The position numbers were made by a program, and so were the translations under genes. Below the pieces are notes generated by a model. That model was not told the DNA's origin, did no database searches, and worked only from the letters and a program-made list of their open reading frames with translations. From Pontiella desulfatans (lineage in GTDB: Bacteria; Verrucomicrobiota; Kiritimatiellia; Kiritimatiellales; Pontiellaceae), in contig NZ_CAAHFG010000001.1 of the NCBI RefSeq assembly GCF_900890425.1, positions 3,596,001 to 3,660,000 on the forward strand: a stretch of DNA of 64,000 nt. The letters are read 5' to 3'. Of this stretch, positions 13,704 to 53,695 are shown one piece after another (position 1 is the first letter of the stretch; each line of letters begins with the position of its first letter).

Positions 13704-14609
13704 GTGTATTATCACCTTTCACTCAAACCGGGACCCCGTGTGGAACAGGAAACCTACAACCATTTGACCAAGGAGATGCTGTTTTATGGCTACAGCATCG
13801 CTATCTGGGAAGAGACCCAACAGTTGGAACGAGCCGAACACTCGCACGACTACACCGAATTGGTAGTCGTCTACGAAGGCAACGGCATCAATACTGTCGA
13901 TGGATACGACTACCCGGTCTCTGCAGGCGAGGTGTTCGTGATTCATGAAGGCATAAAGCACTCCTATCGGAACACCAAAAACCTGCACCTGTGCAATGTG
14001 ATGTTCGACAGCCCGCTGCTCGAAACCTGCGGCGTCGACATCAGCCACCTGCCCGGCTTTCACGCCCTGTTCCGGCTGGAACCGAAAATGCGTAAAACCG
14101 ACTTTAACAGCCGGTTGCACCTGCCGCAAAAAGAGCTGATGGAAGCACGGGGCATCATCGAACGACTGACGAAGGAATTAGCAGCAAGAACCCCGGGGTT
14201 CAGGTTGATCACCCAGAGCCTGCTTTTCCTGCTGATCGGGAAACTCGCGCGCTGGTTCGACCTGTGCCAAAACGAAAACACGGCCCGGTTGATGCAGATC
14301 GCCCAGCCTATCGCCTACATGGAACAACACTACTATGAGCCGCTCGCCATTGAAAAACTGGCTGCCATGGCCGGCATATCGGAACGCGCCTTCTTCCGCA
14401 TTTTCCAGCAGGCTACCGGCGCGTCCCCTAATCAGTACCAGAACAACCTGCGTCTGATCCAGGTTGCCGAACTGCTCCGGCATTCGGATATGCCCGTTGC
14501 CGATATCGCCGATGAATGCGGTTTTCTCAACAGCAGCTACATGGCCAAGCAATTCAGGAAACAGATGAACATGACCCCGCGGGAATTCCGAAACCTCCAC
14601 CAGTCCTAA
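13704..14609 (+). CDS. AraC-family transcriptional regulator, tandem copy 1
   Basis: 301 residues from a GTG start with GAGAGG about 6 bp upstream. The N-terminal cupin-like sensing domain (about 35-110) contains HSHDYTELVVVYEGNGINTV and SAGEVFVIHEGIKHSY. A linker helix region follows, then a C-terminal double HTH (about 205-295): LAIEKLAAMAGISERAFFRI, TGASPNQYQNN, and IADECGFLNSSYMAKQFRKQ ending MTPREFRNL. It would bind DNA and respond to a sugar ligand. It lies 6 bp before a close paralogue on the same strand and just after the operator-like repeats, so autoregulation and control of neighbouring sulfatases are likely. Confidence 0.9.
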   Translation: MYYHLSLKPGPRVEQETYNHLTKEMLFYGYSIAIWEETQQLERAEHSHDYTELVVVYEGNGINTVDGYDYPVSAGEVFVIHEGIKHSYRNTKNLHLCNVMFDSPLLETCGVDISHLPGFHALFRLEPKMRKTDFNSRLHLPQKELMEARGIIERLTKELAARTPGFRLITQSLLFLLIGKLARWFDLCQNENTARLMQIAQPIAYMEQHYYEPLAIEKLAAMAGISERAFFRIFQQATGASPNQYQNNLRLIQVAELLRHSDMPVADIADECGFLNSSYMAKQFRKQMNMTPREFRNLHQS

Positions 14610-14615
14610 GGCCCG

Positions 14616-15491
14616 ATGAAATACGATTCCTTCAAAATAAAAAGCGGAAGGCTGCGCAAAAGCTGGTTGCAGGATTTCCTTATCCAAATCACCGATGTGC
14701 CTGAACACCCGGACTATCCCGAGCATACCCATGAATTCACCGAACTGGTTGTGGTCTATGCGGGAAGCGGTATCAACTGCGTGGACGGGGTTGACTATCC
14801 GATCTCTGAAGGCGATGTCTTCGTCATCCACGAAAGCTCCAGCCACTCCTATCGTGAAACCCGCCACCTGCACCTGTGCAACGTGCTGTTCGACAGCACC
14901 CTGCTCGACATCAAGGGCATCGATATGAGCCACCTGCCCGGCTTCCACGCCCTGTTCCTTCTGGAACCGAAACTGCGCAACAAACCCTTCAGCACCCGCC
15001 TCCGCCTTGACAGCAAAGAGCTACATAAAGCCAAGGCCATGATCCAGGAACTGGAAATGGAGGTGGACAAAAAACAGCCGGGCTTCAGGCTGGTTTCCCA
15101 AAGCCTGTTGTTGCTGCTCATCGGCGAGCTTTCGCGATGGTACGACCAATCCGCAGAAAACAAACCAGGAAAACTGATGCAGATCGCGCATTGCATGGCC
15201 CACATGGAACGGAACTATAACGAACCGCTCGCCATCGGAGAACTGGCCCGAATGGCCAATATGTCGGAGCGCGGCTTCTACCGGGTTTTCCAGGAAGCCA
15301 CCGGCACCACCCCCAACCAATACCTGACGAACCTGCGCATCGCCACGGCCTCAGAACTACTCAGTAAGAGCGAACAATCCATCACCGACATCGCCTACGA
15401 ATGCGGCTTCCAGGACAGCAGCTATATGGCCAAGCAGTTCAAAAAACACATGGGCGTCACTCCGCGCGAATTCCGCAACAGCTTCAGGTAG
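14616..15491 (+). CDS. AraC-family transcriptional regulator, tandem copy 2
   Basis: 291 residues, ATG 6 bp after the stop of copy 1 with AAGG in between. Clearly a duplicate: HTHEFTELVVVYAGSGINCV, SEGDVFVIHESSSHSY, MSHLPGFHALFLLEPKLR all have direct counterparts in copy 1. The C-terminal HTH pair (LAIGELARMANMSERGFYRV; IAYECGFQDSSYMAKQFKKH) is intact. It probably forms one transcript with copy 1. The two may sense related oligosaccharides or bind as heterodimers; neither is shown. A third relative is at 38118-38996. Confidence 0.9.
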   Translation: MKYDSFKIKSGRLRKSWLQDFLIQITDVPEHPDYPEHTHEFTELVVVYAGSGINCVDGVDYPISEGDVFVIHESSSHSYRETRHLHLCNVLFDSTLLDIKGIDMSHLPGFHALFLLEPKLRNKPFSTRLRLDSKELHKAKAMIQELEMEVDKKQPGFRLVSQSLLLLLIGELSRWYDQSAENKPGKLMQIAHCMAHMERNYNEPLAIGELARMANMSERGFYRVFQEATGTTPNQYLTNLRIATASELLSKSEQSITDIAYECGFQDSSYMAKQFKKHMGVTPREFRNSFR

Positions 15492-15574: not shown

Positions 15575-18500
15575 TCACGGATATTCGACTTCCACCCGAT
15601 AGAAGCCGGAGGTTGGGGAATGAGGCAACGACAGCTCAATGAGCTGGTTGGTTGCAAGCACACCGATGTTGGTGGCGTTGGACCAGTCCGGCGGGACGAG
15701 TTCCGGCGATTGCCAAACCGTGTAGCTGCGTCCGGCTTTACCGTTCCACTTAAAATCGCCGGATTCGTCAGGCACCAGCGTGAAGATTGAACCGGCATCG
15801 GCCGCATCGGTTCCGGCCACCGCTTCCTCGACATCGGACATGGCATCCCCATCCAGATTGCCCGCGGAGGCACTGATATAATCGACCTCAAAATCAGCCG
15901 TCGCATTCACTGGATTAAACCGCAGCTGGGTAATCGTACGACCGTCCCATTCGGCATCCCCGGCCATGGGCATGATGATGGTCTCGGTCAGATTACTGTT
16001 ATAGGTAGAGTAAAACAGGCGCGAACCGGCAAACGAGTCGTCATCCGTATGTGCCCAATAGAAGCGGAATGCGGTCGCCTGCGGTGAACGCATTCGCACG
16101 AGAAGGTACGGCACCTCGTCGGCGGAAAAACCCAATGCGTTATGAACAAAACGCCCCCCGTTAGAAGCCTGCCCGACCAGCAGGCCATTGGTCGTCGAAG
16201 GATCGGTAACAGAGGTCGGCTTCCACCCTTCGAAATCGCCTTCGGAATAGAAACGAAACTCGCCGGGCTCATTAAATTCAAAAGCAAGATCGCCTGCATG
16301 GTTCGGATTGCGACCCATAGCGGTTTCATCCACATCCGTCATTCCGTCGCCATCAGAGTCGGTCGTATCCGGCGCGTCGGGCGAAGCTATGGCCGAGATA
16401 TGGGGCGGCGCGCCATAAATATATGCCAGATCGCCGGCGGTATCGCCCATAAAGGCGCGCCCGTTTGAAGGCAGCGTCGCCTGCCAGGCCATCAGGTCGG
16501 CTTCGAGCTCCTCCTGTTTTGCCGGAAGCTGGAAAACCAGATTGGTCAATTCGTTGGGATCATCCTCAATGTTGAACAGATAATCGCCTGCACCGGAACG
16601 GCGCATTTTCCAGTCGCCCTTGCGAATGGCAAGCTCGCCCTCGCCCGGATTACCCCAGTCCCAGAAGAGCGGCTCAACCCGCTCGACCGCACCGGTCATG
16701 CCACTGAGACGCGGCAGCAGGTCCACCCCATCATATTCAGCCGGAACGGCTCCGCGGGCCAGCTTCAGTGCCGTCGCCGCAAAGTCGAGTGTAATGACCG
16801 GATCGTTGATGACCTGTCCGCCGGGAATGGTCCCCTTCCAGTAGGCCCACATCGGCACATTGATGCCGCCTTCCCAGAGGCTTCCCTTTTCGCCGCGGCG
16901 CGGAATGTTTTCCGACCCCGTCCACTTCTCAAGAGTATCTGCCCCCGGGACCGTCTCCCAGAACTTGGGGTTCGATCCATTGTCACTCGCAAACAAAATC
17001 AGGGTATCTTCTTCAATGCCGAGATCGCGCAGTTTCTGCATCACGCCGTCGACGGCATCGTCCATCGCCTTGATCAACGCCAAGCCCTGCCGACGCACAT
17101 CGTCGAGGTCATCGCCATAGTCGGGATAGTCGAGTTCCGGAAATGCGGTATAGTAGACATCATTGGTATCAATGCGCGGAATGTGTGGACCAAACAGCGC
17201 AAGGTGCAGATAGAACGGCTCATCCGCATGGCGACCGATAAAGGCCTCGGCGGCTTCGCCCTGCACCGTGATTCGATTGCGAGCATCGGTGACCACCTGA
17301 TGCGAAACCGAGGCTCCGCTCAAATCATAGTTCACCGTGTAGGGCGAACGCTTGCCGGTCCAGTAATCATCGAATCCGCGTTGCGACGGTTCATATTCCG
17401 AGTCGGGGCGCGGATATTCCACATCCGACGGGCTGACGTGCCACTTGCCCACAAAACCGGTGGCATATCCGCTGTCGCGCAGGCGTTCAGCATTCAGCGT
17501 TTCGCTCAGCGGCAGCGGTGTATCATTGTTCGTACGGAATCCAAAGCGGTTCTGGTATTGCCCGGTCAAGAGCCCGGCGCGCGAAGGCGAGCACTGCGGT
17601 GCGGAAGAATAGCCGTCCGTCATCAACGCCCCGTTTGCCACCAGCGTATCCATCGCCGGGGTGTCCACATTCGAATCGATGCCATGGATGCCCAGATCGG
17701 TGTAGCCTTGATCGTCCGTCAGGATCACAATCACATTAGGAACGCGCGCGAGCTGCTCGCCGGAGCTGATCTCAACCCGGTCGATGGCCACAAAAACCGA
17801 TGCACCGGCATCGAGCGTACCAAAGGTGCTTTCGCCCCCGCCGTTCAGCGAACGCACAACGGCACCGGAATCGGCCACGGTATAAAGGTCGTTGGAATTG
17901 ACCACCGTGATGTCCACCGCATTGCTGCTGAAGTTCCCCTGAAAAACCTTCGCGTCGGGACCATAAACATAGCCATCGTCGCGCAGCGCATAATAGCCGT
18001 TGCCGGATTCGCTGGCGATCGCGGCTGCCCCGCCGTTGTTACTGAAGTTGAAGTACGTATCATCCTGATCCCGCGTCCAGACATAGACTCCGCCGTTGTT
18101 ATACAACCCACGAAAAGCGACGGACGACTGCGCGGCAATATCCACAAAACCGCTGCCGCTCAGCGTAATCTCCGGGGTGGAGCTGAAGTTTTTATAAACC
18201 CGTCCGGTATCGTCCACCGCATAGACCGCCCCGCCCTTCACATCCAGTCCGGTCAACGAGCCGACCGCGCCGCTGAACGTGCCGATCATCTGCACATCCG
18301 GAAAATACCCGCCCAGCAGATCTGCGCGCACTACGCCGTTGTTGTCGAGCAGGCCATAGACAAAGCGGTCGTCCGACGCCGCGGAAATCACCAAATCTTC
18401 GCCAGCGGTCAGATCAAATGCAAAGACCGGATCGAAACTGCCCGTTGATGTGCGGTACACTGCGCCGTCTTCGCGCACACAAACCAGCACCGATTCCTTT

Positions 18501-20629
18501 GGCAGTTCATAGGCGTTCACGGCCGCGCCCACTTCATCGAGACGGCGGGAATCAGGCAGGTCATAGTTGCCGTTGGTGTTCATGAGCGGACACAGGAATC
18601 CACCCTCGGAATGCTCGTTCCAGGAATACATGGAAAAGGTGTTGGCCTCGCACTCCACCGGGTTTTCAACCACATAGTCCATCACCCGATTCATCAATTC
18701 GGTCAGGTCGCCTGGTTCCGGCTCCTGATAGTGTGTGTTTCCGCCATGTCCCTTTTCCGTGCGAGGCTCCGAGTTGACGCCGCAAGGCGCCGCTGGAATC
18801 AGCGCAGCGGAAAGGCTGCTTGCATTCTGGTCCCAATACGGCTCGATGTTGTCCGCCAAATCTGAAAACGGAGTTCCCGGCGGGGCCGTGCCGCCATATC
18901 CGCCGCGATAATCATTGCCCGCATCGAACCCGCCGCCGTCGATCCAATTGCTTTCATTACGCGCATGTGCCGGAACGGCCGATGCCACCAGATAAGGATC
19001 CGGGAGCCCGTCCGCAATAAAGGCATCGCGGATCACTTGAACCGCTGCGGCCAGATTGGTCACGGTCGATCCATCCGCCGGGTCGCCAAGCGTAACGGAA
19101 AGGTCTTTGTAGCTGATGAAGTAAATGATCGGTCGTCCATCGAGTACCGTCTGGTAGTTGGGTTGCTTCGCCTGCCAGACCATCTCTTCAACAGCGAGTT
19201 CAAACTCCGGCCAGTCATCGATCGAATCCAGCCGATACATCATCGCATAATTGATTTCCAACCGCCGCTCACTTTCGAGGAAGGCATCCAGGTTCCAGGT
19301 CAGCCCCCAACCGTTTCCGCCGGCCGAGGCCGGAGCCGTTCCGAAAATCCAATAATCGAGTTTTGCCCCTGCAGTTCCTGCAAAAGCGATCTCCTGCTCG
19401 GTGGCCTCCTGAGTCAGCGAAAACTCCTGCTCGGAATTAAACCAAACGGGGCCGACCGCCCCGTTGGCGGCGTGGTCGATCCATGGAACATCGTTGGTGT
19501 AGCGGCAGAAAAACGGAGCGCGCCAATTCCACTTTGCCGGAGCCAGGAACCCGTAATCGCCCGGCAAATAGCCCAGCTCCTGCGCCTGCGTAGCAGCCAT
19601 ACCGGAATACATATCCCAGCGGATCACGCCGATGGTCGGGCGGTTGACACCGGGGTTGTCGGTGCGGAAGCTCCAGATTTCGCCCCGGTTTGTGGTGGAG
19701 CCGGTCACTTCGTCCACCCGCCAATAATAGACCGTATTCGGTTGCAATACGCCGCTGTTAAAATCTGTCGCGGTTTGGTTTCCCTGAAAAGCCAGATTCT
19801 CAGCATCTGAGCTGAAGTAAACATTGTGGCTGCTCGCCCCTGTTCCGGCTGTCCAGCTCAGTTGATTCGAGCTGCCGGATGCAACCTGCGTGGTCAGGTC
19901 GGCCGGGCTCGGCGATTTGGCCAGAGCAGTATTAAGCTCTGCCGTCAGCACCAGATCCGTTCCGACGCTTCCGAAAAGAATCCGCCCTGCTCCGCCGAAG
20001 GCCGTGATCTTTCCCTGATCAATCAGCAGGCGAACCGCCATACGAGAGGAAGGATTGGTAATGGTCAACTGACCGTTCCCTATATCCAGCAGTCCCCCAT
20101 CCCCGAATTGCAGTGTGGAACAGACTGCCGCGCCGCCGTACAGATAAGCCGTGCCCACCGTATTGCTGTCAGCACCGATCTTCAGCGCGCTGCAGGAAAG
20201 CGTTCCGCCGGTCATGGTAAAATCGCCGCCGGCGGAGGAAAGGCCCACCTCCAGATGGCCGGAGAGCGTCACCGACCCATCGCGCACCAGCAGGTTGCCC
20301 GTGTGCGCAGCACTGGATGACCCGCAATAGATCGCCCAGGCATTCAGCGAACCGCCATCAACCGTCAGCGTAACCGACCCGGCATCCTGCCACCCTGCCG
20401 GCAGATAGACATTCCTGCAGACATGGCCGCCCGACACAACTTCAGGATCGTTCGACGTCAGGTAGACGTAGGCATGATCCCCGGATCCGGGCTCACTTCC
20501 GCCCTGCCAGTTTCCGCCGTTCGACCAGTCACGATCCTGCGTCCCCCGCCAGTTCGATGCATGCACCGGAAGCGTCAGAGCCAAAACGCACACTGCCAAT
20601 ATCCAACCCTTCAAAAAAACCGTCATCAC
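15575..20629 (-). CDS. Giant secreted multidomain sulfatase fusion
   Basis: 1684 residues. Signal peptide 1-24 (MMTVFLKGWILAVCVLALTL). 25-240: repetitive beta-structure typical of passenger-like or pectin-lyase-like regions (WRGTQDRDWSNGGNW; TMTGGTLSCSALKIG). 245-322: fibronectin-III-like (LSWTAGTGASSHNVYFSS; NTVYYWRVDEV). 327-705: a TIM-barrel-like region (TIGVIRWDMYSGM; DYWIFGTAP; IIYFISYKDLS; MYSWNEHSEGG) recalling GH99/WbsX-like proteins, assigned tentatively. 707-955: propeller-like repeats (DGAVYRTS, TGRVYKNF, DGYVYGPD). 963-1395: full S1 sulfatase with CSPSR, Cys about 1013, and FASDNGSNP. 1423-1437 and about 1590: TSP3-type DSDGDGMTDVDE and NLDGDAMSDVEE, then a closing beta domain. 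Such a chain could bind, cleave and desulfate one glycan. Site B lies just upstream. Confidence 0.88.
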   Translation of the reverse strand: MMTVFLKGWILAVCVLALTLPVHASNWRGTQDRDWSNGGNWQGGSEPGSGDHAYVYLTSNDPEVVSGGHVCRNVYLPAGWQDAGSVTLTVDGGSLNAWAIYCGSSSAAHTGNLLVRDGSVTLSGHLEVGLSSAGGDFTMTGGTLSCSALKIGADSNTVGTAYLYGGAAVCSTLQFGDGGLLDIGNGQLTITNPSSRMAVRLLIDQGKITAFGGAGRILFGSVGTDLVLTAELNTALAKSPSPADLTTQVASGSSNQLSWTAGTGASSHNVYFSSDAENLAFQGNQTATDFNSGVLQPNTVYYWRVDEVTGSTTNRGEIWSFRTDNPGVNRPTIGVIRWDMYSGMAATQAQELGYLPGDYGFLAPAKWNWRAPFFCRYTNDVPWIDHAANGAVGPVWFNSEQEFSLTQEATEQEIAFAGTAGAKLDYWIFGTAPASAGGNGWGLTWNLDAFLESERRLEINYAMMYRLDSIDDWPEFELAVEEMVWQAKQPNYQTVLDGRPIIYFISYKDLSVTLGDPADGSTVTNLAAAVQVIRDAFIADGLPDPYLVASAVPAHARNESNWIDGGGFDAGNDYRGGYGGTAPPGTPFSDLADNIEPYWDQNASSLSAALIPAAPCGVNSEPRTEKGHGGNTHYQEPEPGDLTELMNRVMDYVVENPVECEANTFSMYSWNEHSEGGFLCPLMNTNGNYDLPDSRRLDEVGAAVNAYELPKESVLVCVREDGAVYRTSTGSFDPVFAFDLTAGEDLVISAASDDRFVYGLLDNNGVVRADLLGGYFPDVQMIGTFSGAVGSLTGLDVKGGAVYAVDDTGRVYKNFSSTPEITLSGSGFVDIAAQSSVAFRGLYNNGGVYVWTRDQDDTYFNFSNNGGAAAIASESGNGYYALRDDGYVYGPDAKVFQGNFSSNAVDITVVNSNDLYTVADSGAVVRSLNGGGESTFGTLDAGASVFVAIDRVEISSGEQLARVPNVIVILTDDQGYTDLGIHGIDSNVDTPAMDTLVANGALMTDGYSSAPQCSPSRAGLLTGQYQNRFGFRTNNDTPLPLSETLNAERLRDSGYATGFVGKWHVSPSDVEYPRPDSEYEPSQRGFDDYWTGKRSPYTVNYDLSGASVSHQVVTDARNRITVQGEAAEAFIGRHADEPFYLHLALFGPHIPRIDTNDVYYTAFPELDYPDYGDDLDDVRRQGLALIKAMDDAVDGVMQKLRDLGIEEDTLILFASDNGSNPKFWETVPGADTLEKWTGSENIPRRGEKGSLWEGGINVPMWAYWKGTIPGGQVINDPVITLDFAATALKLARGAVPAEYDGVDLLPRLSGMTGAVERVEPLFWDWGNPGEGELAIRKGDWKMRRSGAGDYLFNIEDDPNELTNLVFQLPAKQEELEADLMAWQATLPSNGRAFMGDTAGDLAYIYGAPPHISAIASPDAPDTTDSDGDGMTDVDETAMGRNPNHAGDLAFEFNEPGEFRFYSEGDFEGWKPTSVTDPSTTNGLLVGQASNGGRFVHNALGFSADEVPYLLVRMRSPQATAFRFYWAHTDDDSFAGSRLFYSTYNSNLTETIIMPMAGDAEWDGRTITQLRFNPVNATADFEVDYISASAGNLDGDAMSDVEEAVAGTDAADAGSIFTLVPDESGDFKWNGKAGRSYTVWQSPELVPPDWSNATNIGVLATNQLIELSLPHSPTSGFYRVEVEYP

Positions 20630-21261: not shown

Positions 21262-21951
21262 TCAGATCATAAAACGGCGGCGGATGAACAGAACAGTGCC
21301 TCCAAACGCGGCAACCATCCCCAGCGTGGCCGGCTCAGGAATTGCGGTTACCTGCCAGTTGTCGCTCAGCAGCTGCGTGAGCGTGCCGACATCGTGTTCG
21401 TCCACAATGCGGATCCGAACCAGGATATCCTTCCCGACATCTCCGGCCACCGTCGTATAATCAAAGGTCAACTGTCCCAGATTATTGGCGGATTGGCTCG
21501 AAGCGAGATCACCGAACACAAAGTTGGAGGAAGGCCCGCTGACTTTCGTTCCGTCGATCCGAAATCCAGATTGATTCGCGTGAACCGCCAGATCGGATGC
21601 CGCGGCCACGCTTCCGAAACGCCAACCGAAATCGCCGGAAAAGGTGTAGGTTACCCCGGCCTCAGCCACAGCACCCAGACTGATGTCCATGCCGCTGAGA
21701 ATGGATGCCACACCATTAACATTCGTCTGGCTGGAATTGGCCGAAGCGAATCCATCGCCTTCGATACCCGCCAACGAACCATCGGTCTGAATGCCGGGCC
21801 CCGTTGAGCCGAACACAGGAGCCCCAAAGCTGGCGGAGTAGGGAGAACTGAAACCAGAATTGAACCCCTCGCTCCAGATCACCGAGGCCGAGGCGGATCC
21901 CGCAACAAGTATCAAGGCCGTAATGCCATGGTATAATATTCGTTTTCGCAT
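21262..21951 (-). CDS. PEP-CTERM secreted protein with EGFNSGFSSP domain
   Basis: 229 residues. Signal peptide 1-22 (MRKRILYHGITALILVAGSA). 25-200: a beta-rich domain beginning SEGFNSGFSSPYSASFGAPV, with FSGDFGWRFG in the middle and LLSDNWQVT at the end, shared with two other proteins in this region. C-terminus: IPEPATLGMVAAFGG, a hydrophobic stretch and RRR, which is a classic PEP-CTERM sorting signal processed by an exosortase (none in this window). It is probably exported and attached to, or released into, extracellular matrix. The domain function is unknown; a carbohydrate-binding role would fit but is only inferred. A strong terminator follows. Confidence 0.85.
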   Translation of the reverse strand: MRKRILYHGITALILVAGSASASVIWSEGFNSGFSSPYSASFGAPVFGSTGPGIQTDGSLAGIEGDGFASANSSQTNVNGVASILSGMDISLGAVAEAGVTYTFSGDFGWRFGSVAAASDLAVHANQSGFRIDGTKVSGPSSNFVFGDLASSQSANNLGQLTFDYTTVAGDVGKDILVRIRIVDEHDVGTLTQLLSDNWQVTAIPEPATLGMVAAFGGTVLFIRRRFMI

Positions 21952-22006
21952 TTTGGTTCCTTTTTAAATGACAAGAGGGGGTTGCTTAAACAACCCCATT
22001 TCCAAC

Positions 22007-23890
22007 CTAAAGCTGATTGATCTTAAACCGGAAGAACAGTTCGTCCTGACCCGAAACCTCATATTCCACAGCATCAAAATTCACATCGATCGTGATGTTG
22101 GTTGTCACCGCGCTCCAATTGGCATTGGTCCACTCTGTATTAACCAGATCCGGAGTCTGCTCAACGGTATAGATGATATCGGCATTGGGATCGGTGAGCT
22201 GGACATGAGTATAACGGGCGACACCGTTTGAGACCGACAGGGTCGGCAGCGTGCCCTGGTCGGCAGCATTGGTCGGGTTGCCCCCCAGACCATATTCATA
22301 GATGTTGGACAGCTCATCGCCGTCATCATCGTCATCCGCCCCGCCGACCAGGCCATAACCGACACTCCACTCTGCGTAACCCGCCTGCAGAACCGCAACA
22401 TCAACTACCGCCAGCCCGACAAATCCGCTGCCGTTAAGTGTCGCCAGTTGCGCAATCGCATTCTCCTTGGCGACATCCCGGAGATAAACCGCACCGGACG
22501 TATTGATTTGCAGATAGCTGTTCACCTCCGCAACCAAACCGAGCGCGGAATCTGTTGGCGATCCGCCCCACTGTCCGCTGTTTCCAAAATAATCCTGCCC
22601 GGATGATACTTCGTAAACCAGCCCGTCCGTCCGCGAAACGAAAACGAATCCTGACATATCACCGGCGACTTGCGTAATGCCATTGCTTACTGCTCCGCCC
22701 CCTTGAGACCAAAGGGTGGAGAATGCACCGGAGTCATATGTCACGACGCGAGAGAGCCCGCTGTCCGTGGTCACACCTGCAACCAGCTTACTTTCCTGGA
22801 AACTTAATGAATGATAGACTCCAGCCACCGTATTGCTGAACGTAAACGCGGCATTGGTGGAACTGTTCTGATAAACCCCTCCGTCATCGGCCAAAAACCA
22901 GAAGTCCGCTCCATCATGCGCAAAATCGATCAAGTCAGCATCTGCGGCATTCGTTAGAATATTCCGGGTAAAGTCAGAACCACCGATATTTCCATCCACC
23001 GTATGGTAGACATTGGTCAGCGGAATGTGGTTGACGCGGTATTCGCCCAGTACCGCGGTGTTTGTTGAGCTGGTGACCTGCCCGAAGGAGTAGAAGCTGC
23101 CGCCATACCCCAGCGCGCCAATCACATCGCCGACTTTAGTATTATCCTCCTCAACAATTGCGCCGTTATTCACATACGCCGAGGCTCCGTTCTGCGGATT
23201 ATAATAATAAGAAAGTCCATCCGCCCGCACACCGACCACCAGCGTTGCATTGGTTGGTCCCGGCTCCGGCTCAGGGACCCCAACGTCCACCAGCCAGTTA
23301 TCGGTCAGCAGCTGAGTGAGATTAGCCACGGCATTGGCATCTGCATGACGAACTCTGAGCGTAACGGTCTCTCCGACATCATCCTCAACCGTCGTATAAC
23401 TGAAGGTGACCGCATTCAGCGTTCCCGCAGCCTGTGCGCCATAATTAAAAGTAATCGGAGCATCGGTTACCCCGGTCTTGGCACCGATATTAAAACCGCT
23501 TTGACCGTTGTGAATGGACAGATCGCTCGCGGTGGTTGCATTACCATACCGCCAGCCGAAATCCCCCGTAAACGTGATGACCTCCCCGGCCTGTTGAATG
23601 GCATATCCCGTATCCACATCCATGCTGCCGATAATGACAACAGTCCCGTTGGTAGCTGATTGATTTACATTTGCCGCAGCAAATCCATCGCCTTCGATTC
23701 CGGCAATGGAACCGTCCGTAATGATACCCGGGTTGGTGTCTCCAAACACTGGAGTCCCCCAGGTTGCGGAATAAGGACTCGAAAATCCCGAATTAAATCC
23801 TTCCGCAAAAATATTTGAGCTCTGCGCCGAAGCCGATCCCGCGGCCAGCGCCAACGTTGGAATGATACTGAATAACGTACGTTTTCTCAT
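22007..23890 (-). CDS. Secreted EGFNSGFSSP-domain protein with propeller and TSP3 tail
   Basis: 627 residues from the ATG at 23890, preceded by AGGAGGCAGGAA; an upstream in-frame ATG lacks this. Signal peptide MRKRTLFSIIPTLALAAGSA. 20-205: EGFNSGFSSP domain (AEGFNSGFSSPYSATWGTPV; FTGDFGWRYG; LLTDNWLVD) ending in VPEPEPGP, which looks like a vestige of a PEP-CTERM junction. 210-500: propeller-like repeats (VVGVRADGLSYYY; DGLVYEVS; SGAVYLRD) like those in the giant sulfatase fusion. About 520-545: DDDDDGDELSNIYEYGLGGN, a TSP3-type calcium segment. C-terminal beta domain with YTVEQTPDLVNTEW. No enzyme motif is recognised; a surface binding or scaffold protein is likely. Confidence 0.8.
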   Translation of the reverse strand: MRKRTLFSIIPTLALAAGSASAQSSNIFAEGFNSGFSSPYSATWGTPVFGDTNPGIITDGSIAGIEGDGFAAANVNQSATNGTVVIIGSMDVDTGYAIQQAGEVITFTGDFGWRYGNATTASDLSIHNGQSGFNIGAKTGVTDAPITFNYGAQAAGTLNAVTFSYTTVEDDVGETVTLRVRHADANAVANLTQLLTDNWLVDVGVPEPEPGPTNATLVVGVRADGLSYYYNPQNGASAYVNNGAIVEEDNTKVGDVIGALGYGGSFYSFGQVTSSTNTAVLGEYRVNHIPLTNVYHTVDGNIGGSDFTRNILTNAADADLIDFAHDGADFWFLADDGGVYQNSSTNAAFTFSNTVAGVYHSLSFQESKLVAGVTTDSGLSRVVTYDSGAFSTLWSQGGGAVSNGITQVAGDMSGFVFVSRTDGLVYEVSSGQDYFGNSGQWGGSPTDSALGLVAEVNSYLQINTSGAVYLRDVAKENAIAQLATLNGSGFVGLAVVDVAVLQAGYAEWSVGYGLVGGADDDDDGDELSNIYEYGLGGNPTNAADQGTLPTLSVSNGVARYTHVQLTDPNADIIYTVEQTPDLVNTEWTNANWSAVTTNITIDVNFDAVEYEVSGQDELFFRFKINQL

Positions 23891-23990
23891 TTCCTGCCTC
23901 CTGTATTGATTCACAACATCCGGGACATCCCGAGCGTCCCCTCTTCCTAGCTATACCCAATAAACCATAGCGAAAAGAAGCGTTCCGGTA

Positions 23991-24303: not shown

Positions 24304-25845
24304 TTACCTCTCCCGAAAACCCCAGCGCTTTTCGGCGAATTCGATCAGGCTGCTATGGAACCCGCCGTCATACTCCGGTACCGGAAGCTCGTTTTTCCAA
24401 TCGAGCAGCGCTTTGCGCAGCTCTGCGGCTTTTTCGGGCATTTCGCTGATAAGATTGTGGGTCTCATGGAATTCCTTGTCGGTATTATGCGCGCCCGGCT
24501 GTTCGAGCGACACATCAAACAGCAGTTCCTCGCCGTTTTCGTGCATCATGAATTTATACTTTCCGCTGATCACGGCGGCGGTGTTCATATAGCGCTGATA
24601 GATGTATCGGCTCGGTTCGCCTTTCTTTTTCCCCGTCAGGAACGGCATCAGGTTCACGCCGTCGAGCATGGAATCCTTTGCCGGATCGCTTCCTGCCAGC
24701 GCCACGGCAGTCGCCCCGGCATCGAGCGTGTTTACCGGCTTATCAAACACCTGCGGTTTAATGACATCTTTCCAATACACAAAATAAGGAACCCGCGCGC
24801 CGCCCTCGAAGATAATCCCTTTTGAGCCATGCCAGGGATCGTTCACCGACCCATCCCACGATTTTGTTCCCAACGGCGCGCCGTTGTCGCCCATGAAAAA
24901 GATGATGGTGTTGTCCAGCTCGCCTGTTTTTTCCAAGGTCTGGATGAGCTCGCCGACCCCGTTATCGATGCCTTTGAGTAAGGCCAATCCCTGTTGCCGC
25001 ACTTCGGCCTCCGTATAAGGCCGCGCATAATTGATTCGATTTTTATACGGCTTTTTGGTGTTGTCGTATCCCTTCGCCACCAGCTCTTCCACTGACAGCA
25101 CCTGATCCGTCAGTGAAGCCGGTGCATCCAGCGGTGAGTGCGGTCCGTAATAGGCGAGATACAGGAAAAACGGCTCCGCACCCTTCGCATGCCGTTCAAC
25201 AAAACGCTGCGCCAGCTCGGTCTGGAGCTGAAGGCGGAATTTATCCGCGTGGGATTTCTTCTCATAAATCTTGTAGTTGATTTCCTGCGGTTCGACCTCT
25301 TTACCGCTCACATCAAAGTTCGACCAGTATTTGTTTCCGGTTCCCTGCGCATATTCATCATAGCCGAAGCCCTGCGGCCGGTGCGCGTTAACCGCCTCGA
25401 CCGGCGCATCGGCCATGCTAGTGCAGCCGACCTGCTCAAACCATTTTTTCGTCTGACGGTTCGGCTCCAGGTGCCATTTGCCGACGTGGCCGGTTTTATA
25501 CCCCAGCTTCTTCAGGCGCGAAGCGATAGACGTCTCACTCTTCGGCAACGGCCCTTCGCCGTTGGCCTCCATCGCAAACTTTTGCTGGTACCGCCCCGTC
25601 ACAATGCCCGCCCGCGACGGCACGCACTGCGGCGCCGTGCAGTAGGCCTGCGTCATCAGCGCACCGCCGGACGTCAGCTTATGGATGTTCGGCATATCGA
25701 CCTCATCGCGCATATCCGTTGCTTCGAGATCGTTAAAACCATGGTCATCCGTAACAATAAAAATGATGTTCGGTTGTTTCGCCGCCACAAGGCCGGTCGC
25801 CATCAACCCCAATGAGAGCACTACCCACTTCAGTCTATTTTTCAT
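24304..25845 (-). CDS. Secreted S1-family sulfatase
   Basis: 513 residues from the ATG at 25845, which opens the signal peptide MKNRLKWVVLSLGLMATGLV (cleaved near AA-KQPN). Fold start NIIFIVTDDHGFNDLEATD; formylglycine motif CVPSR, Cys about 74; VGKWHLEPN and FFMGDNGAPLG follow. This pattern (TGRYQQKF, LEPNR, GDNGAPLG) is shared with the truncated sulfatase at the right edge of the window, so the two are probably the same subfamily. Site D, a single operator-like motif, lies 36-51 bp upstream. Confidence 0.9.
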   Translation of the reverse strand: MKNRLKWVVLSLGLMATGLVAAKQPNIIFIVTDDHGFNDLEATDMRDEVDMPNIHKLTSGGALMTQAYCTAPQCVPSRAGIVTGRYQQKFAMEANGEGPLPKSETSIASRLKKLGYKTGHVGKWHLEPNRQTKKWFEQVGCTSMADAPVEAVNAHRPQGFGYDEYAQGTGNKYWSNFDVSGKEVEPQEINYKIYEKKSHADKFRLQLQTELAQRFVERHAKGAEPFFLYLAYYGPHSPLDAPASLTDQVLSVEELVAKGYDNTKKPYKNRINYARPYTEAEVRQQGLALLKGIDNGVGELIQTLEKTGELDNTIIFFMGDNGAPLGTKSWDGSVNDPWHGSKGIIFEGGARVPYFVYWKDVIKPQVFDKPVNTLDAGATAVALAGSDPAKDSMLDGVNLMPFLTGKKKGEPSRYIYQRYMNTAAVISGKYKFMMHENGEELLFDVSLEQPGAHNTDKEFHETHNLISEMPEKAAELRKALLDWKNELPVPEYDGGFHSSLIEFAEKRWGFRER

Positions 25846-25880
25846 CCGAACAAAATAGAACATTCATCCGGCATAGGCTA

Positions 25881-47138: not shown

Positions 47139-48563
47139 TTACCTTCCTTTACCTGCCGCCGTGCTGTTCGGCGGGAGCGGAGGAAAATAGTCCGGCGGAT
47201 CTTCGATGGGTAGGACACCGCCGACGTGGCCGGGCTGGTATTTATCGCTGACGGTGTCACCGTCGTCGAACGGATCATTCGTACGCTCCAGCCATCCGCG
47301 CAGTTTTTTGTGCAACTCCTGCTGGAGCGCCGCCACATCCGGATTGTCCCGATTTGCCCAGCTGATCAGATTGTTTTTCTGGAAGGGATCGGCTTTATCG
47401 TCATACAGCACCCACGGACCTTCCGGAGTTTCGGCGTAGGTGTGCGTGCGCGTCACCACGCCACGGAACGGCGGAGCGGGAATGCAGTGCACATCGACGG
47501 CAAAATTGATGAATACGGAATCCGGCGCGGCCGTTTCATCGCCCAGGATCAATGCAGAAAGATCATCGCCCTGCATGGCTTCGGGAATTTCAGTTCCGGT
47601 CAGCGTAATCAGGGAAGAGGTGAGCTCGATCAAACTGATCGGCGCATCGGTCACCCGCCCTTCCGGAATGTTTCCGGGCCAGCGCATCAGCAGTGGAATA
47701 CCGACCGACTCGCGCCACGGCTGGCTTTTATAGTACTGCTCATGATTGCCGAGCATGTCGCCATGGTCGGCGGTGAACACCACAATGGTGTCCTCATAGA
47801 GTCCCTGCTCTTTCAAGGTCTGCTCCAAGCGTCCCACCTGATCATCGAGCGCCATGACATGGGCATAATACCCCGCAAGGATTTCTTTCTTCGCCTGCAT
47901 GATTTCGCCGGGCACATAAATACTGTTGGTCTCCATCAATTCCACATCATCTGCCGGATAGCGTTCCAGCAGCTCCGGCGGCATTTCGCGGTAGGGATCA
48001 TGCGGCGTTCCGATGGAGAGCATCAGGAAGAAGGGATCATCCGCCTTGGCCTTTTCTTTCATGTAGTCAATAGCCAGATCGGTCTGGTGAATCGGTTCAT
48101 AACCTTCAATAAAATGTGGTTTCGGCTCTTCGGTATAATAGAACGAACTCATGTAATCATGCGTACAGTTCGCCACCGCCCAGTAATCATTGAAGCCCAG
48201 TCGCCGCCGTCCAGGCGGTGTGAAACCGGTGCGCGGTCCACCATCCAGATGCCACTTGCCGATGTAGCCGCATTTATATCCGCTCTTCGTTAAGGCACCT
48301 GCAAAGGTCGGTCCGTCATTCTTACACTGGATTTCATTATTCACCACGCCATGCGAGAGCGTATGCAAACCGGTCAGCATCGTACCGCGCGACGGTGCGC
48401 ATGACGGCGTATTCGCCACCGCATTGGTAAAGCGCGTGCCCTGCGCTGCCAGGCGGTCAATGTTCGGGGTTTTAACTTTTTCCACGCCCGCGCACCCCAT
48501 CGCCGTCGAGCGCATCTGATCGGTTAAAATATAAAGTATGTTTGGTCTGCTTCTTCGATTCAT
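47139..48563 (-). CDS. S1-family sulfatase without a signal peptide
   Basis: 474 residues. The ATG at 48563 is preferred because GGAGAAC lies 6-12 bp upstream; the in-frame ATG at 48578 has no such site. The chain begins directly with MNRRSRPNILYILTDQMRST, so there is no export signal and a cytosolic location is likely, unlike every other complete sulfatase here. Formylglycine motif CAPSR, Cys about 55; IGKWHLDGG; FTADHGDMLGNHEQYYKS, a motif of the choline-sulfatase/arylsulfatase branch. It may act on sulfated oligo- or monosaccharides after import by the neighbouring GPH symporters. Confidence 0.88.
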   Translation of the reverse strand: MNRRSRPNILYILTDQMRSTAMGCAGVEKVKTPNIDRLAAQGTRFTNAVANTPSCAPSRGTMLTGLHTLSHGVVNNEIQCKNDGPTFAGALTKSGYKCGYIGKWHLDGGPRTGFTPPGRRRLGFNDYWAVANCTHDYMSSFYYTEEPKPHFIEGYEPIHQTDLAIDYMKEKAKADDPFFLMLSIGTPHDPYREMPPELLERYPADDVELMETNSIYVPGEIMQAKKEILAGYYAHVMALDDQVGRLEQTLKEQGLYEDTIVVFTADHGDMLGNHEQYYKSQPWRESVGIPLLMRWPGNIPEGRVTDAPISLIELTSSLITLTGTEIPEAMQGDDLSALILGDETAAPDSVFINFAVDVHCIPAPPFRGVVTRTHTYAETPEGPWVLYDDKADPFQKNNLISWANRDNPDVAALQQELHKKLRGWLERTNDPFDDGDTVSDKYQPGHVGGVLPIEDPPDYFPPLPPNSTAAGKGR

Positions 48564-48590
48564 CAGTTTGTTCTCCATGTAACAATTTTA

Positions 48591-48660
48591 ACGCAAAGTC
48601 GCCAAGATCGCTAAGTACCGCAAAGCTTTGCGCGCCTCTGATTTCTTTGCACCTTTGCGT
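48591..48660. repeat. Hairpin repeat between sulfatase genes
   Basis: ACGCAAAG (48591) and CTTTGCGT (48653-48660) pair across a loop that holds the palindrome CGCAAAGCTTTGCG (48619-48632). The right arm ends exactly at the stop codon of the 48661-50070 gene. Similar CGCAAAG/CGCAGAG arms occur at 55293 and 61270. Confidence 0.6.
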
Positions 48661-50070
48661 TTATTCTGTCTCATGAAACCATTCTGGATAAGGTTTTTTA
48701 ACCTGCTGGTAAACTTTTCCACCCTCTGGATAAAACACGCCGTAGTTCTTTATTTTTCCAGGCGGGCGTTCCGCATCCCACCCCGGATTGGGGCGCATGC
48801 GCTGCGCGCCGGAAGACTGCAAATGGTTCTCCAGCATGTTGACCAGCCGTTCCAACCGCTCGGGATACCTTGCAGCCAGATCGTTCAACTCTCCGGGATC
48901 GTCCTTCAGGTTATACAACGCCTGATCGCCACTCAAAATATGACGAACCAGTTTCCAGTCGCCCACCGCAATTGCGGAGGCGGGATGGTCTCGATGTGGA
49001 AAATGCCAAACTAAAGTTCGTGGATCAGCGTCCTTTCCTTTCAGAAACGGAAGCATGCTCGCGCCATCCACATGGGCTTTCGTCATCGGCTTCACACCGG
49101 CCATCTCCAGAAAGGTCGGAAAATAATCGGTGCTGATTACCGCCGCATCACTAACGGCTTCCGCCGCAACCCGCCCCGGCCAGCGCACCAGTAGCGGAAC
49201 GCGGATTCCACCTTCATACACATCCCCTTTGCCGCCGCGGAACGGCTTGTTGCTGGTCAAATTTTTCAGGCCGCCATTGTCGGAGGTAAAAATCACAACG
49301 GTATTTCTATCGAGCTCCAGTTCGGCCAGTTTATCCATCACGGTTTTGATGGACTGATCAAGATGCGAAACCATGCCGGCATATTTTTTATTCTTCTGGA
49401 ATTTTCCTTTCGGCACATCGTCATACAGCGCCTCCGCTTCCGGCGGGCAGGCCATCGGAACGTGAGGCACATGATGCATCAGGCACACCATGAAAGGATC
49501 GTCTTTATGTTCTTCCAGAAAACGAACCGTCAGGTCGGTCAATTCATCCACGCCCTTATCGCGCCTTTTCTCCTGCCCCGAACAGTCAGCCGCTTCATCA
49601 AAGCCATAGGCCTTGTGTTCGCCTTCGTTGAAAAACGTTTCCTCGTTACCCAGATGCCACTTCCCGAACAGCGCGGTGCGATAACCGGCCTGTTGCAACG
49701 CTTTTCCAAAGGTTGGAAGATTAGATGGCAGTTCCTTGAGATGATTCGGCGGAATCATTTTCGGATTTTCCGCCAGCCGATCCCAGGGCAGCGCATCGGT
49801 TAACTGCACGCGGTGCGGAGTTCGACCCGTCAGGATCGCCGCCCGCGTGGGTGAACAGACATTGCACGCCGCATAGGCGCGCGAGAAGCGCATGCCCTCT
49901 TCCGCGAGTTGGTCCAGATTCGGCGTTCGGTAATAGTCGCTCCCGTAACAACCCAGATCCTTTACCCCGAGATCATCCGCCATGATGAACAGAATATTGG
50001 GGCGCTCCGAAGCTGAAGCAATCCCGGCCGTGGCAAACAATACACATAGCACTAACGTTCTGTTAATCAT
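48661..50070 (-). CDS. Secreted S1-family sulfatase, coupled to a symporter gene
   Basis: 469 residues; signal peptide MINRTLVLCVLFATAGIASA before SERPN. NILFIMADDLGVKDLGCYGS; formylglycine motif CSPTR (Cys about 72); FGKWHLGNE; FTSDNGGLKNL. The start overlaps the stop of the upstream GPH symporter by 8 bp (ATGATTAA, 50063-50070), showing translational coupling. Together with the GH106-like gene upstream, this makes a three-gene unit of glycosidase, importer and sulfatase. Confidence 0.92.
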   Translation of the reverse strand: MINRTLVLCVLFATAGIASASERPNILFIMADDLGVKDLGCYGSDYYRTPNLDQLAEEGMRFSRAYAACNVCSPTRAAILTGRTPHRVQLTDALPWDRLAENPKMIPPNHLKELPSNLPTFGKALQQAGYRTALFGKWHLGNEETFFNEGEHKAYGFDEAADCSGQEKRRDKGVDELTDLTVRFLEEHKDDPFMVCLMHHVPHVPMACPPEAEALYDDVPKGKFQKNKKYAGMVSHLDQSIKTVMDKLAELELDRNTVVIFTSDNGGLKNLTSNKPFRGGKGDVYEGGIRVPLLVRWPGRVAAEAVSDAAVISTDYFPTFLEMAGVKPMTKAHVDGASMLPFLKGKDADPRTLVWHFPHRDHPASAIAVGDWKLVRHILSGDQALYNLKDDPGELNDLAARYPERLERLVNMLENHLQSSGAQRMRPNPGWDAERPPGKIKNYGVFYPEGGKVYQQVKKPYPEWFHETE

Positions 50071-51538
50071 TGGAGATAAGCTCCTGTCGTTTGCTCAGCT
50101 CCGCCTGAATCTCGTGGATACGTTCACGGGTCAGCGGATAAAATTTCATAATAACAGCCGCTCCCGCGAGACAGGCCGTCGGGAAGAGGACGAGGAACCA
50201 GCGTAAACGCCGAATCGTTTCCGGGGTCATAGTATCTGCGCCGGCCTCATAACCCGCAGCTGCAATCAGATAGCCCAACGCCACCCCGATCACCGTGAAG
50301 GCCAGCTTGACAATAAAACCGAACGATGCGGAAAACATGCCTTCGCGGCGATAGCCGAATTCAAGTTCGTCTGCATCGCAGACATCGGCAATAAAGGCCC
50401 CATTAAGCAGCCAGCAGCAATTCATTCCGAATCCGAGCATGGCGGCGGAGATCAGCTGCAGTTTCGGATAGTTCGGATTCACCAGAAATAGATTGAGCAG
50501 GGTTGCCGATGCGCCGGTAAAAAGTCCGATCATAAGCACTTTCTTTTTGTCCAGCAGCTGCACCAGATAGGGAACAATAAATGAACTGATGAGCATCGAA
50601 ATTGCCTGCACACTTCCGAACAGGCCCATCAAGGTTGCACCGGCGTCTTTATCCCCATCGAACACATGGAAAATATTCAGATACATCAAGAGCGGATTCA
50701 CAAAATACATTCCGGTAATCACCAGCAGGATCATGCCCAGCAGGAAAGCGAAGGGCCTGTTTTTGGAAACCAGTTTTGCCGAGCTCAACAATCCGATCTT
50801 TTCCTTCCCGGTGATCTTCCCGCGCTCTTTAACAAGAAATGAGGTCGGCAGAATGGCCAGAATGATAAATAACGCACAGGCCCAGGCCACATAGCGCGAA
50901 CCCAGCACCTCTATCTTAACGGATGCATCCGCCGCGAGGCCGGGAAACAACGTGAGCGGTTTTTCATACCATGCAACCTGTTCCTGCGCGGCCAGTGCCC
51001 GCGCCTTTTCACCGGCCATCAGGCAGACCTTATAGATCCAGGGGATGGTGAAGGTAGCGACCGAGCTGAAGATCAGTCGATATTTCTGTATATGGGCGCG
51101 CTCATCATAGTCATCGGTCAGTTCCAGGCCGAGCGCGGTATAGGGAACCGAATAGACGGTATAGGCGAGATAGAAAAGAATGCAGGCCACCGCCGCATAA
51201 GCAAACATGGCCCACTGCCCCATGTAGGGTGAAGCCATATAAGTCAGCCCGAAGATCAACGCCATAAAAATGCCGCCGATCAGAATAAACGGCCGGCGGC
51301 GCCCAAAGCGGCTCCGGCTGTTATCGGACATGTTCCCGATCAGCGGATCGGAGATCATATCGAAGAACCGCGGAATGGTAATCGCCCAGCCAATGAGTTT
51401 TGAATCGAGCCCGAACCCCATATTGAACACGGGCATGAACATGCTGTTGAGTCCATTCACCGCAATCTGCTCGCTGAAGCCGCCGAGGCCCCACGCGAGC
51501 TTTTCTTTCATAGCCGGTTTGTCTTTTATTTTTTCCAT
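50063..51538 (-). CDS. GPH-family sugar:cation symporter (MFS)
   Basis: 491 residues with about 12 hydrophobic segments. GPH-family marks: GLGGFSEQIAVNGLNSMFMP at the start, RFFDMISDPLIGNMSDNSRS then RFGRRRPFILIGGI (the MelB-like D..GR..D region), and a second-half QAISMLISSFIVPYL. ATG at 51538 with AAGGAGAAC upstream. It would import a glycoside, pentoside or uronide with a cation. It starts 9 bp after the GH gene stop and overlaps the sulfatase gene downstream, so it probably takes up the products of those enzymes. Paralogue: 61412-62803. Confidence 0.9.
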   Translation of the reverse strand: MEKIKDKPAMKEKLAWGLGGFSEQIAVNGLNSMFMPVFNMGFGLDSKLIGWAITIPRFFDMISDPLIGNMSDNSRSRFGRRRPFILIGGIFMALIFGLTYMASPYMGQWAMFAYAAVACILFYLAYTVYSVPYTALGLELTDDYDERAHIQKYRLIFSSVATFTIPWIYKVCLMAGEKARALAAQEQVAWYEKPLTLFPGLAADASVKIEVLGSRYVAWACALFIILAILPTSFLVKERGKITGKEKIGLLSSAKLVSKNRPFAFLLGMILLVITGMYFVNPLLMYLNIFHVFDGDKDAGATLMGLFGSVQAISMLISSFIVPYLVQLLDKKKVLMIGLFTGASATLLNLFLVNPNYPKLQLISAAMLGFGMNCCWLLNGAFIADVCDADELEFGYRREGMFSASFGFIVKLAFTVIGVALGYLIAAAGYEAGADTMTPETIRRLRWFLVLFPTACLAGAAVIMKFYPLTRERIHEIQAELSKRQELISND

Positions 51539-51547
51539 ACGTTCTCC

Positions 51548-53695
51548 TTAGGGCATGACGATCAGGGACCGAACCGCACCCAGTTTGCGTTTGGCCGGCA
51601 ACCGAACCGAACTGATTTCACCGGTAGAAGGGTCGAGCAGTTTCACCTGTCCCTCCCCTATGATTTTTATCGGAAGCTCATCCTGCATCCGGTTGACCAG
51701 AAAATAGACCGGCTTATTTTTTTGATGGAATCGCCCCACCACCAGCTGATCGCTTCCCGGCGAAAACGTCAGATTAAAATCGTCAGAGAATGAATTTCCA
51801 ATGGCTGGAACCACACCCTTCATATCCGTAGCCGAAACCTGCTCCAGCAGCGCTTTCACCTCAGCATCATGTTTTGCATGTTCCGCGGCATAGGGCACCG
51901 AATCCACCCAGATAATTTTTCCACCTGACTCCTGAAAACGGGACAGTTGCTGCGCCACATCCAGCGGCAGGAATTCCATCGCCGGCATCACCAGCGTGTG
52001 ATACGACCCGTAGCCGATCTTCAAATGGCCACCAGCGATTTCCGCGTCGGCCACCGCTTCCGGATGCACGATCATATAGCTGACGTCGCCGTTGATCAGC
52101 GTCAGCTCGGTTGCATCCCAGGCTTCCTGTTTGTCCTGATGCAGCTGATTGATTTTCCCCCATCCCATATCCGAAGCCAGCAGATCGGCCTGGAACATCG
52201 CAATGGGATAATAGAGGGCTACGCCGGCATCGCGTTTCGCGCCGCGCAGCACCTGCGTAATACGCCCGGTGTATTCGTTCACAAAGCGAAATTCTTCCGC
52301 CGTATACCCCTTGGCCGCTTCTTGACGACCCGTTTCTCCTTCTCCGCTGCGCGCTTCAAAAGGGAGATAGGACGTAAAAAGGGTAACGCCATGAAATGAG
52401 GCCATATTGATCGAGTTCAGCAGCAGCGGGAGATCCGGAGAAAGACGCGTCAGGCCATATCCTCCAATGATGGGGTCCAGCAACATGATCACCTGATCCT
52501 TTTCCTTCCATGCCGCGACCGAACTGAAAAAACGTGACTGCTGATAGCGGAAATCCAGAAACTGATCCGGATTGGGGATGGGAATATCCAGAGCGGGAAC
52601 ATCGAACTCGGACACAAATTTCATCAAATCGCCGTAGCCCTGCACATGCTGGGTCAGATAATCGTTCAGCAGGTAATGGCCGCTGGATTTGATTCCCCGC
52701 TCGTTGCACCACTCGCGGATCTGGCGCGAAAAGCTATCGGTCAGCAGATCCCCCACCGCCTGCCGATAATGAATGCGTGCCCGGCGGGCATCATCGTCTT
52801 CGCCCTCAAAAACGGCAGGCAATACGCTGAACAGGTCATAGCCGTGCATGGTCTTAAACCGGGCCGGCAGTGCATCGCTCCACGGCGCACAGGCATACGG
52901 CGCTTTTGTTTTCCCATTCCAATGCGTCTGCATGAGATTGGGCTCATTGCAGTAAAACCCTTCTACCTTGCTGGCCGGATCATCAATCTGCGCCAGAATC
53001 GGCTCATGCATATTCGCAAGAAACCGCGACATCGCCTCGCGGTTCATCAAATCGGGATACCGACCCGCATGACCGAACTGCCGAACCGTGGACTGTCCCT
53101 GCGTATCTTTATTCCGGGTATACCGGGCGAATACCCGAAGTTTCCAATCCCCGGAAACCCCTTTGCCCGAGAGACTCCGGCTCCCGGTTTCAACCGGCAC
53201 TTGTACCGCACCATTACTTACAGAGTTTAGTGAGGCATAGATTATGTCATGCAGATCATCCGGCAGGGAAAAATCGATCGTTTCTTCCCCCTGCCCTTTC
53301 TGGGTCAGCATCACCAGACTGCGCACTTCAAAATCAGGATTTTCCGCTACAACGCGTCCACCGGCCATGCCGCTGGGATAGCCCCAGTCATCCGCCAGCC
53401 ACACCTTATAGTCAATCGCCCGCGCGGCATCCACCAGCTCGCCAATGATCTCCGGCCCGTTTTCGCCCATCTTATATTGCTGTTTTCCACACTCCGGATA
53501 GAGGATGCTGTAGAAAAACCCCATCACGCCACCTACGCCATATTGCGGATATTTTTCCAGCGTCTGGGACGTCAACTGGTATTGGGTGATGCGGTAATCG
53601 TTCGGCGGATTTTTAAACGTCTCTTCCGTCACAGCCATCCCCCCGGAAGACATTCCGAGGCCGCACAAAACCGTCCATATGAACTTTTTTTTCAT
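51548..53695 (-). CDS. Secreted GH106-like glycoside hydrolase
   Basis: 715 residues; signal peptide about 1-22 (MKKKFIWTVLCGLGMSSGGM). The N-terminal catalytic region resembles the GH106 fold: GVGGVMGFFYSILYPECGKQ, then DYKVWLADDWGYPSGMAGGR, VEGFYCNEPNLMQTHW and GIKSSGHYLLND. A later glutamine-amidotransferase-like segment (GYGSYHTLVMPAMEFLPLDV) and short beta tail are usual in these multidomain enzymes. It lacks the long C-terminal lectin-like part of the 1092-residue GH106 protein. Likely removes rhamnose or a similar sugar; the exact specificity is open. It is first in a unit with a symporter and a sulfatase. Confidence 0.75.
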   Translation of the reverse strand: MKKKFIWTVLCGLGMSSGGMAVTEETFKNPPNDYRITQYQLTSQTLEKYPQYGVGGVMGFFYSILYPECGKQQYKMGENGPEIIGELVDAARAIDYKVWLADDWGYPSGMAGGRVVAENPDFEVRSLVMLTQKGQGEETIDFSLPDDLHDIIYASLNSVSNGAVQVPVETGSRSLSGKGVSGDWKLRVFARYTRNKDTQGQSTVRQFGHAGRYPDLMNREAMSRFLANMHEPILAQIDDPASKVEGFYCNEPNLMQTHWNGKTKAPYACAPWSDALPARFKTMHGYDLFSVLPAVFEGEDDDARRARIHYRQAVGDLLTDSFSRQIREWCNERGIKSSGHYLLNDYLTQHVQGYGDLMKFVSEFDVPALDIPIPNPDQFLDFRYQQSRFFSSVAAWKEKDQVIMLLDPIIGGYGLTRLSPDLPLLLNSINMASFHGVTLFTSYLPFEARSGEGETGRQEAAKGYTAEEFRFVNEYTGRITQVLRGAKRDAGVALYYPIAMFQADLLASDMGWGKINQLHQDKQEAWDATELTLINGDVSYMIVHPEAVADAEIAGGHLKIGYGSYHTLVMPAMEFLPLDVAQQLSRFQESGGKIIWVDSVPYAAEHAKHDAEVKALLEQVSATDMKGVVPAIGNSFSDDFNLTFSPGSDQLVVGRFHQKNKPVYFLVNRMQDELPIKIIGEGQVKLLDPSTGEISSVRLPAKRKLGAVRSLIVMP

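Follow-up and report, generated by a model that had tools for sequence, protein, structure and literature searches.

A secreted Pontiella protein joins a GH99-like barrel to an S1 sulfatase and is predicted to desulfate and cut one sulfated polysaccharide

In a window of 64,000 nucleotides from the genome of the marine anaerobe Pontiella desulfatans (the whole stretch of DNA analysed here, to which all positions refer unless another locus is named), one minus-strand gene at 15575..20626 joins a GH99-like (beta/alpha) barrel to a complete S1 sulfatase. Judging from the sequence, a structural model and the analogy with a characterised tandem enzyme, we consider it likely that the product is a secreted bifunctional enzyme which desulfates and cuts one sulfated polysaccharide, a rhamnose-containing polymer being favoured. 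The structures of many marine sulfated polysaccharides are unknown, and annotation of the enzymes that degrade them is poor. In this case, a predicted chain-cutting enzyme is hidden in a protein annotated as a sulfatase, and the fusion itself names the pair of bonds to act on.

The minus-strand frame at 15575-20629 is free of stops over 1684 codons. Translation most likely starts from the ATG at 20626, which has GAGGA 7 nt upstream and gives a protein of 1683 aa; residues are nevertheless numbered throughout from the GTG at 20629 (residue 1), and all features of the gene given below lie on the minus strand. The hydrophobic N-terminus suggests a signal peptide at residues 2-24 (20558..20626), for which we place the cleavage site after LALTLPVHA and before SN. 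A hydrophobic leader is also present in the own sequence of an orthologue, and the protein is predicted to be exported or secreted.

Full-length, collinear orthologues were found in two other genomes. The first (G032, 3.88 Mb in one contig, from the same order and another family) encodes a protein of 1700 aa with 79% identity over 1705 positions. The second (G247, from the same phylum and another class) encodes a protein of 1945 aa with the same module order and about 67% identity, in which a GH115_C-type module (PF17829, L135:9680-10183) is inserted between the propeller and the sulfatase. Three overlapping screens covered 388, 346 and 384 genomes, all from this phylum. Among the matches listed, the sulfatase fusion occurred only in Pontiella and in these two genomes; the other matches listed reached at most 43% identity, and a sulfatase was absent from the loci examined. 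An earlier note, made from the letters alone, had described a long frame of fused modules, with the caveat that it might be an assembly artefact, and had suggested a search for the same domain order elsewhere. The order does recur, in both orthologues, and together with the open frame they speak for a real gene. An assembly artefact is ruled out by these collinear sequences, one of which comes from a single-contig genome, and the wider idea that the frame is an artefact or a chance joining of genes is hardly worth entertaining, as dN/dS is well below 1 in every domain. Between the Pontiella and G032 sequences, dN/dS by the Nei-Gojobori method was lowest in the sulfatase (0.08) and the barrel (0.10) and lay at 0.11-0.24 in the other parts. 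Purifying selection thus acts on all domains, and most strongly on the barrel and the sulfatase.

The barrel comprises residues 329-708 (18506..19645). Pfam and NCBIfam gave no match at these residues of the 1683-aa protein, and its glycoside hydrolase assignment came through intermediate homologues, not through a direct profile match. Among 84,980 species genomes scanned, 132 relatives turned up, and 80 of them were kept; the homologues span Planctomycetota, Armatimonadota, Lentisphaerae, Verrucomicrobiota and other phyla, and most of them are annotated, if at all, as WbsX glycosyltransferases. Standalone-gene homologues match Pfam WbsX (PF14307) above the gathering score, and 53 of the 55 aligned homologues match that family, whereas the Pontiella protein itself gave no match to it. 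An exported protein fused to a sulfatase is more easily understood as a hydrolase than as a nucleotide-sugar transferase. The GH99 family model PF16317 gave no match to the barrel domain and a weak one in a single homologue of the 55.

In the 55-row alignment, which draws on many phyla, W670, N671, E672, E675 and G676 are invariant, and the putative catalytic dyad E672-x-x-E675 (WNEHSEG, 18605..18616) is kept in both orthologues as well. An AlphaFold2 model of the barrel built with this alignment reached a pLDDT of 86 and a pTM of 0.90. When the model was compared with the PDB by Foldseek, the best 36 matches were all GH99 proteins (OpGH99A at the top, BxGH99, BtGH99 and human MANEA), with E values of 5e-9 to 9e-6, TM scores of 0.42-0.57 and identities of 12-14%; by the last two measures, the barrel is far from characterised GH99. 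The profile of the 55 rows also placed OpGH99A first in the PDB, weakly (E 0.02), and aligned to a Pfam-GH99 protein with 95.6% probability, so that E672 and E675 fall on its WNEWPE. A phmmer search of the PDB with a standalone relative returned chance matches only. The dyad is E-x-x-E in GH99 and D-x-x-E in GH71, where the first residue is almost always Asp (PMC12394665). Since the dyad here begins with Glu672, the barrel is GH99-like and not GH71-like, and membership in GH71 was rejected. The earlier note had proposed a glycan-acting TIM barrel at residues 327-705, with paired catalytic Glu residues of the GH99 or GH71 kind. The predicted structure and the invariant E672/E675 pair bear out the barrel and the GH99 half of that guess and not the GH71 half. 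Thus, as far as model and alignment can tell, the fold is GH99-like with an ExxE dyad, and catalysis is predicted.

The S1 sulfatase domain occupies residues 961-1390 (16460..17749). PF00884 matches residues 964-1293 with E=8e-46 and 157 bits, against a cut-off of 25, and the formylglycine motif C/S-x-P-S/A-R is found at Cys1013 (CSPSR, 17591..17593). Also present are D972, D973, R1017, K1062, H1064, H1149, D1216, N1217 and K1248, to which we presumably may assign the metal and substrate roles known from arylsulfatases in general; all ten catalytic residues, Cys1013 included, are kept (10/10) across the three orthologues. The PF00884 match and the CSPSR motif confirm what had been proposed from the letters, a complete sulfatase with its Cys at 1013 embedded in one secreted chain. 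Pfam and NCBIfam report the whole protein as a sulfatase only. Judged from PDB structures alone, its subfamily neighbours are S1_16 and S1_19, and S1_51 is far: the closest solved structures are the kappa-carrageenan sulfatases 6prm, 9fo1 (S1_16) and 9hh3 (S1_19), single-module enzymes of 460-480 aa, with E values of about 1e-42 to 1e-47, while the S1_51 enzyme OpSulf1 (9FVT) gave 4e-14 against 1e-46 for the carrageenan sulfatases.

The remaining modules are less sharply defined. Ahead of the barrel lie an N-terminal glycine-rich beta region (residues 25-239, 19913..20557), which has no Pfam match and is 53-78% identical in the orthologues, and an Fn3-like domain (residues 240-328, 19646..19912), for which the Pfam fn3 match is weak both here (E=0.003) and in an orthologue (0.0018). 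Residues 710-955 (17765..18502) plausibly form a beta-propeller: about six repeats can be seen by eye, and the internal-repeat score was equalled by 1 of 60 shuffles, but an AlphaFold2 model made from the single sequence, without an alignment, reached a pLDDT of only 34 and did not confirm the fold. At strong E values this segment was found only in the 1683-aa protein and its two orthologues, and it had no further match in the Pontiella genome at E<=1. Behind the sulfatase follow a TSP3-like calcium repeat (residues 1424-1443, DSDGDG at 1424, 16301..16360), matched by PF18884 weakly here (E=0.008) and above the cut-off in an orthologue, a beta-rich module without a Pfam match (residues 1444-1592, 15854..16300), and a second DGD/TSP3-like stretch (DGD at 1593) with the C-terminal tail (residues 1593-1684, 15578..15853). 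Matches to the C-terminal part were found at 34 places in the Pontiella genome, which makes it a general secreted-protein module. Of the accessory segments named in the earlier note, TSP3 stands, Fn3 finds weak agreement and the propeller is plausible. The exchange of modules with the protein at 22007-23914, which that note also saw, did not fare as well. An hhalign comparison of the propeller with that protein gave E 0.024 at about 2% probability, and E 0.019, 2.5% probability and 25% identity, collinear over the full length, when an orthologue of the 22007-23914 protein was added. As this likeness is suggestive only, and the tail is common property of the genome, module exchange is not established.

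Proteins of this kind are already known, from PbSulf1-GH195 and from several Pontiella fusions. PbSulf1-GH195 of Polaribacter sp. Hel1_33_78 unites an S1_51 sulfatase with a GH99-related mannanase, both domains being active, and for the separated enzymes of Polaribacter and Ochrovirga desulfation must come before cutting (PMC13063451). The published Pontiella fusions, S1_7+GH10, S1_7+GH32 and S1_15+GH29 (PMC6388578), likewise combine a sulfatase and a glycoside hydrolase in one gene, but the hydrolase is of another clan; the term GH99 has 0 occurrences in that paper. Like PbSulf1-GH195, whose two domains work one after the other on sulfated alpha-1,3-mannan, the protein described here combines a GH99-related barrel and an S1 sulfatase in a single exported chain. 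Unlike it, it has a sulfatase distant from the S1_51 enzyme OpSulf1, its barrel comes first whereas the name PbSulf1-GH195 implies that the sulfatase does, and it carries beta, Fn3, propeller and TSP3 modules where the Polaribacter protein, from the phylum Bacteroidota and with mannan as its substrate, has a T9SS domain. With the GH99 endo-alpha-mannosidases and mannanases (BxGH99, BtGH99 and human MANEA) the barrel has the fold and the E-x-x-E dyad in common, but the low identity and the absence of a Pfam GH99 match set it apart. The novelty lies in the partner barrel, in the subgroup of the sulfatase, in how the modules are ordered and in the occurrence among PVC bacteria.

By our favoured reading, the exported protein would bind the polymer via its beta modules, and the sulfatase, with formylglycine formed from Cys1013, would remove sulfate esters. 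By analogy with PbSulf1-GH195, desulfation may turn the backbone into a productive substrate for the barrel, which would cut it by means of E672/E675, probably within the chain. The N-terminal beta region, the Fn3 domain, the probable propeller and the TSP3/beta tail could act as spacers, binding modules and anchor. The products would be taken up, and then finished by exo-sulfatases and by GH106/GH78 alpha-L-rhamnosidases of the locus.

The surroundings of the gene recur, in part, around its orthologues. It is adjoined by two AraC-family regulators (13704..15491, plus), one with a 63.5% counterpart near an orthologue. A PEP-CTERM-type protein (21262-21951) and a 635-aa secreted protein (22007-23914), together at 21262..23914 (minus), have counterparts at the orthologous loci, and a sulfatase at 24304..25863 (minus) shares 88% identity with a gene product encoded near the orthologue in G032. 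A further group at 47139..53695 (minus) has counterparts near the orthologues in both genomes: the sulfatases at 47139-48578 (91% in G032, 79% in G247) and 48661-50070 (74% and 66%), an MFS_2 sugar symporter at 50063-51538 (75% and 70-77%) and a GH106-like gene at 51548-53695 (63% and 62%). The same holds for the sulfatase at 8193-9992 (64% and 67%). GH106, GH78, RhaT and L-fucose-isomerase-like genes are also found in the window; the first three, with the many sulfatases nearby, suggest that the polymer contains rhamnose. The product of 21262-21951 is small and exported, with a PEP-CTERM-like sorting tail and an N-terminal domain common with the 22007-23914 protein, and its 51% counterpart adjoins the G247 orthologue. 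Elsewhere, a single frame of 1331 aa (G363, L138:4127-8119) combines a GH99-like domain with a GH106 alpha-L-rhamnosidase, and in relatives adjacent GH99-like/WbsX genes lie beside sulfatases as separate genes, not fusions (L022:5977-8272 and L023:4121-8836).

Between Pontiella and G247, the barrel is 78% and the sulfatase 77% identical, and the N-terminal and propeller modules 51-53%. RpoB identity is 81% between Pontiella and G032 and 63% between Pontiella and G247. Because secreted, fast-evolving enzymes are here more alike than RpoB, we infer that the block was probably transferred horizontally. An IS1595-type transposase at 43706-44389, within the locus, fits a mobile or rearranged region.

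Several other readings of the protein have to be weighed. The barrel might be a non-catalytic binding module, which would leave merely a sulfatase with adaptors, as for OpGH99A. The best fold match is indeed this protein, which going by the title of its report is GH99-related and without catalytic machinery (Protein Sci 2017, cited in PMC13063451); an ExxE dyad invariant in 55 homologues is, however, unlike a degenerate copy, and strong purifying selection with conservation equal to that of the sulfatase makes this reading improbable. Still a little less probable, in our view, is that the protein remodels a sulfated exopolymer of the cell's own instead of algal food. Pontiella strains do make sulfated glycosaminoglycan-like exopolymers (PMC7356697), but the locus, with its symporters, its AraC regulators and its exo-acting enzymes for sugars, points to sugar uptake and use, and the block, which a member of another class has in common with Pontiella, seems to have been transferred.

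A more serious rival grants the bifunctional enzyme and changes its substrate: in place of a rhamnose polymer, it would act on a sulfated alpha-mannan, as PbSulf1-GH195 does, or on a carrageenan-type galactan, which we regard as a real, if lesser, possibility. The GH99 and GH195 enzymes known to us act on mannan, and we know of no member of either family that cuts rhamnan. The nearest sulfatases act on the 4-sulfate of kappa-carrageenan, and a GH130 gene lies at 34-909; against this stand GH106, GH78 and RhaT in the locus and the GH106-like genes beside the two orthologues. The published substrates of P. desulfatans F1, probably the strain at hand, bear on both sides, as F1 grows on kappa-carrageenan, and the list, with L-rhamnose and fucoidans, does not contain D-mannose (PMC7356697). 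We therefore keep to the rhamnose-containing polymer as the favoured substrate. A bolder version, rather doubtful at present, would make the barrel the founder of a new family in the GH99 group which cleaves sulfated alpha-L-rhamnan or some other polymer than mannan; its union with an unrelated type of sulfatase would mean that the desulfate-then-cut tandem known from diatom mannan had arisen a second time, independently. The activity of this one protein would bear on the dozens of homologues in its GH99-related family, and would also tell whether the tandem design arose more than once.

The rarity of such a multi-domain sulfatase, implied in the earlier note, was overstated, given the fusions published for Pontiella and Polaribacter and the many multimodular sulfatases of the Pontiella genome, which occur in tandem or with pectate-lyase-like beta-helix, CBM96, LamG and Ig modules. 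P. desulfatans F1 (8.6 Mbp, 5 contigs) has 521 sulfatases (PMC6388578). The gene at G000:C1:3121001-3128000 (L021:3-4076, minus) encodes two sulfatase domains in at least 1358 aa, with the TSP3/beta module known from the 1683-aa protein between them, and the first of the two is the closest paralogue of the sulfatase domain in the window (53%). Tandem double sulfatases are encoded at L209:1668-5633 and L211:1624-5034 of the same genome, one of them with HEAT repeats in between, and at L214:2818-6711 and L215:1778-6343 a pectate-lyase-like beta-helix is fused to a sulfatase, which possibly combines cutting and desulfating.
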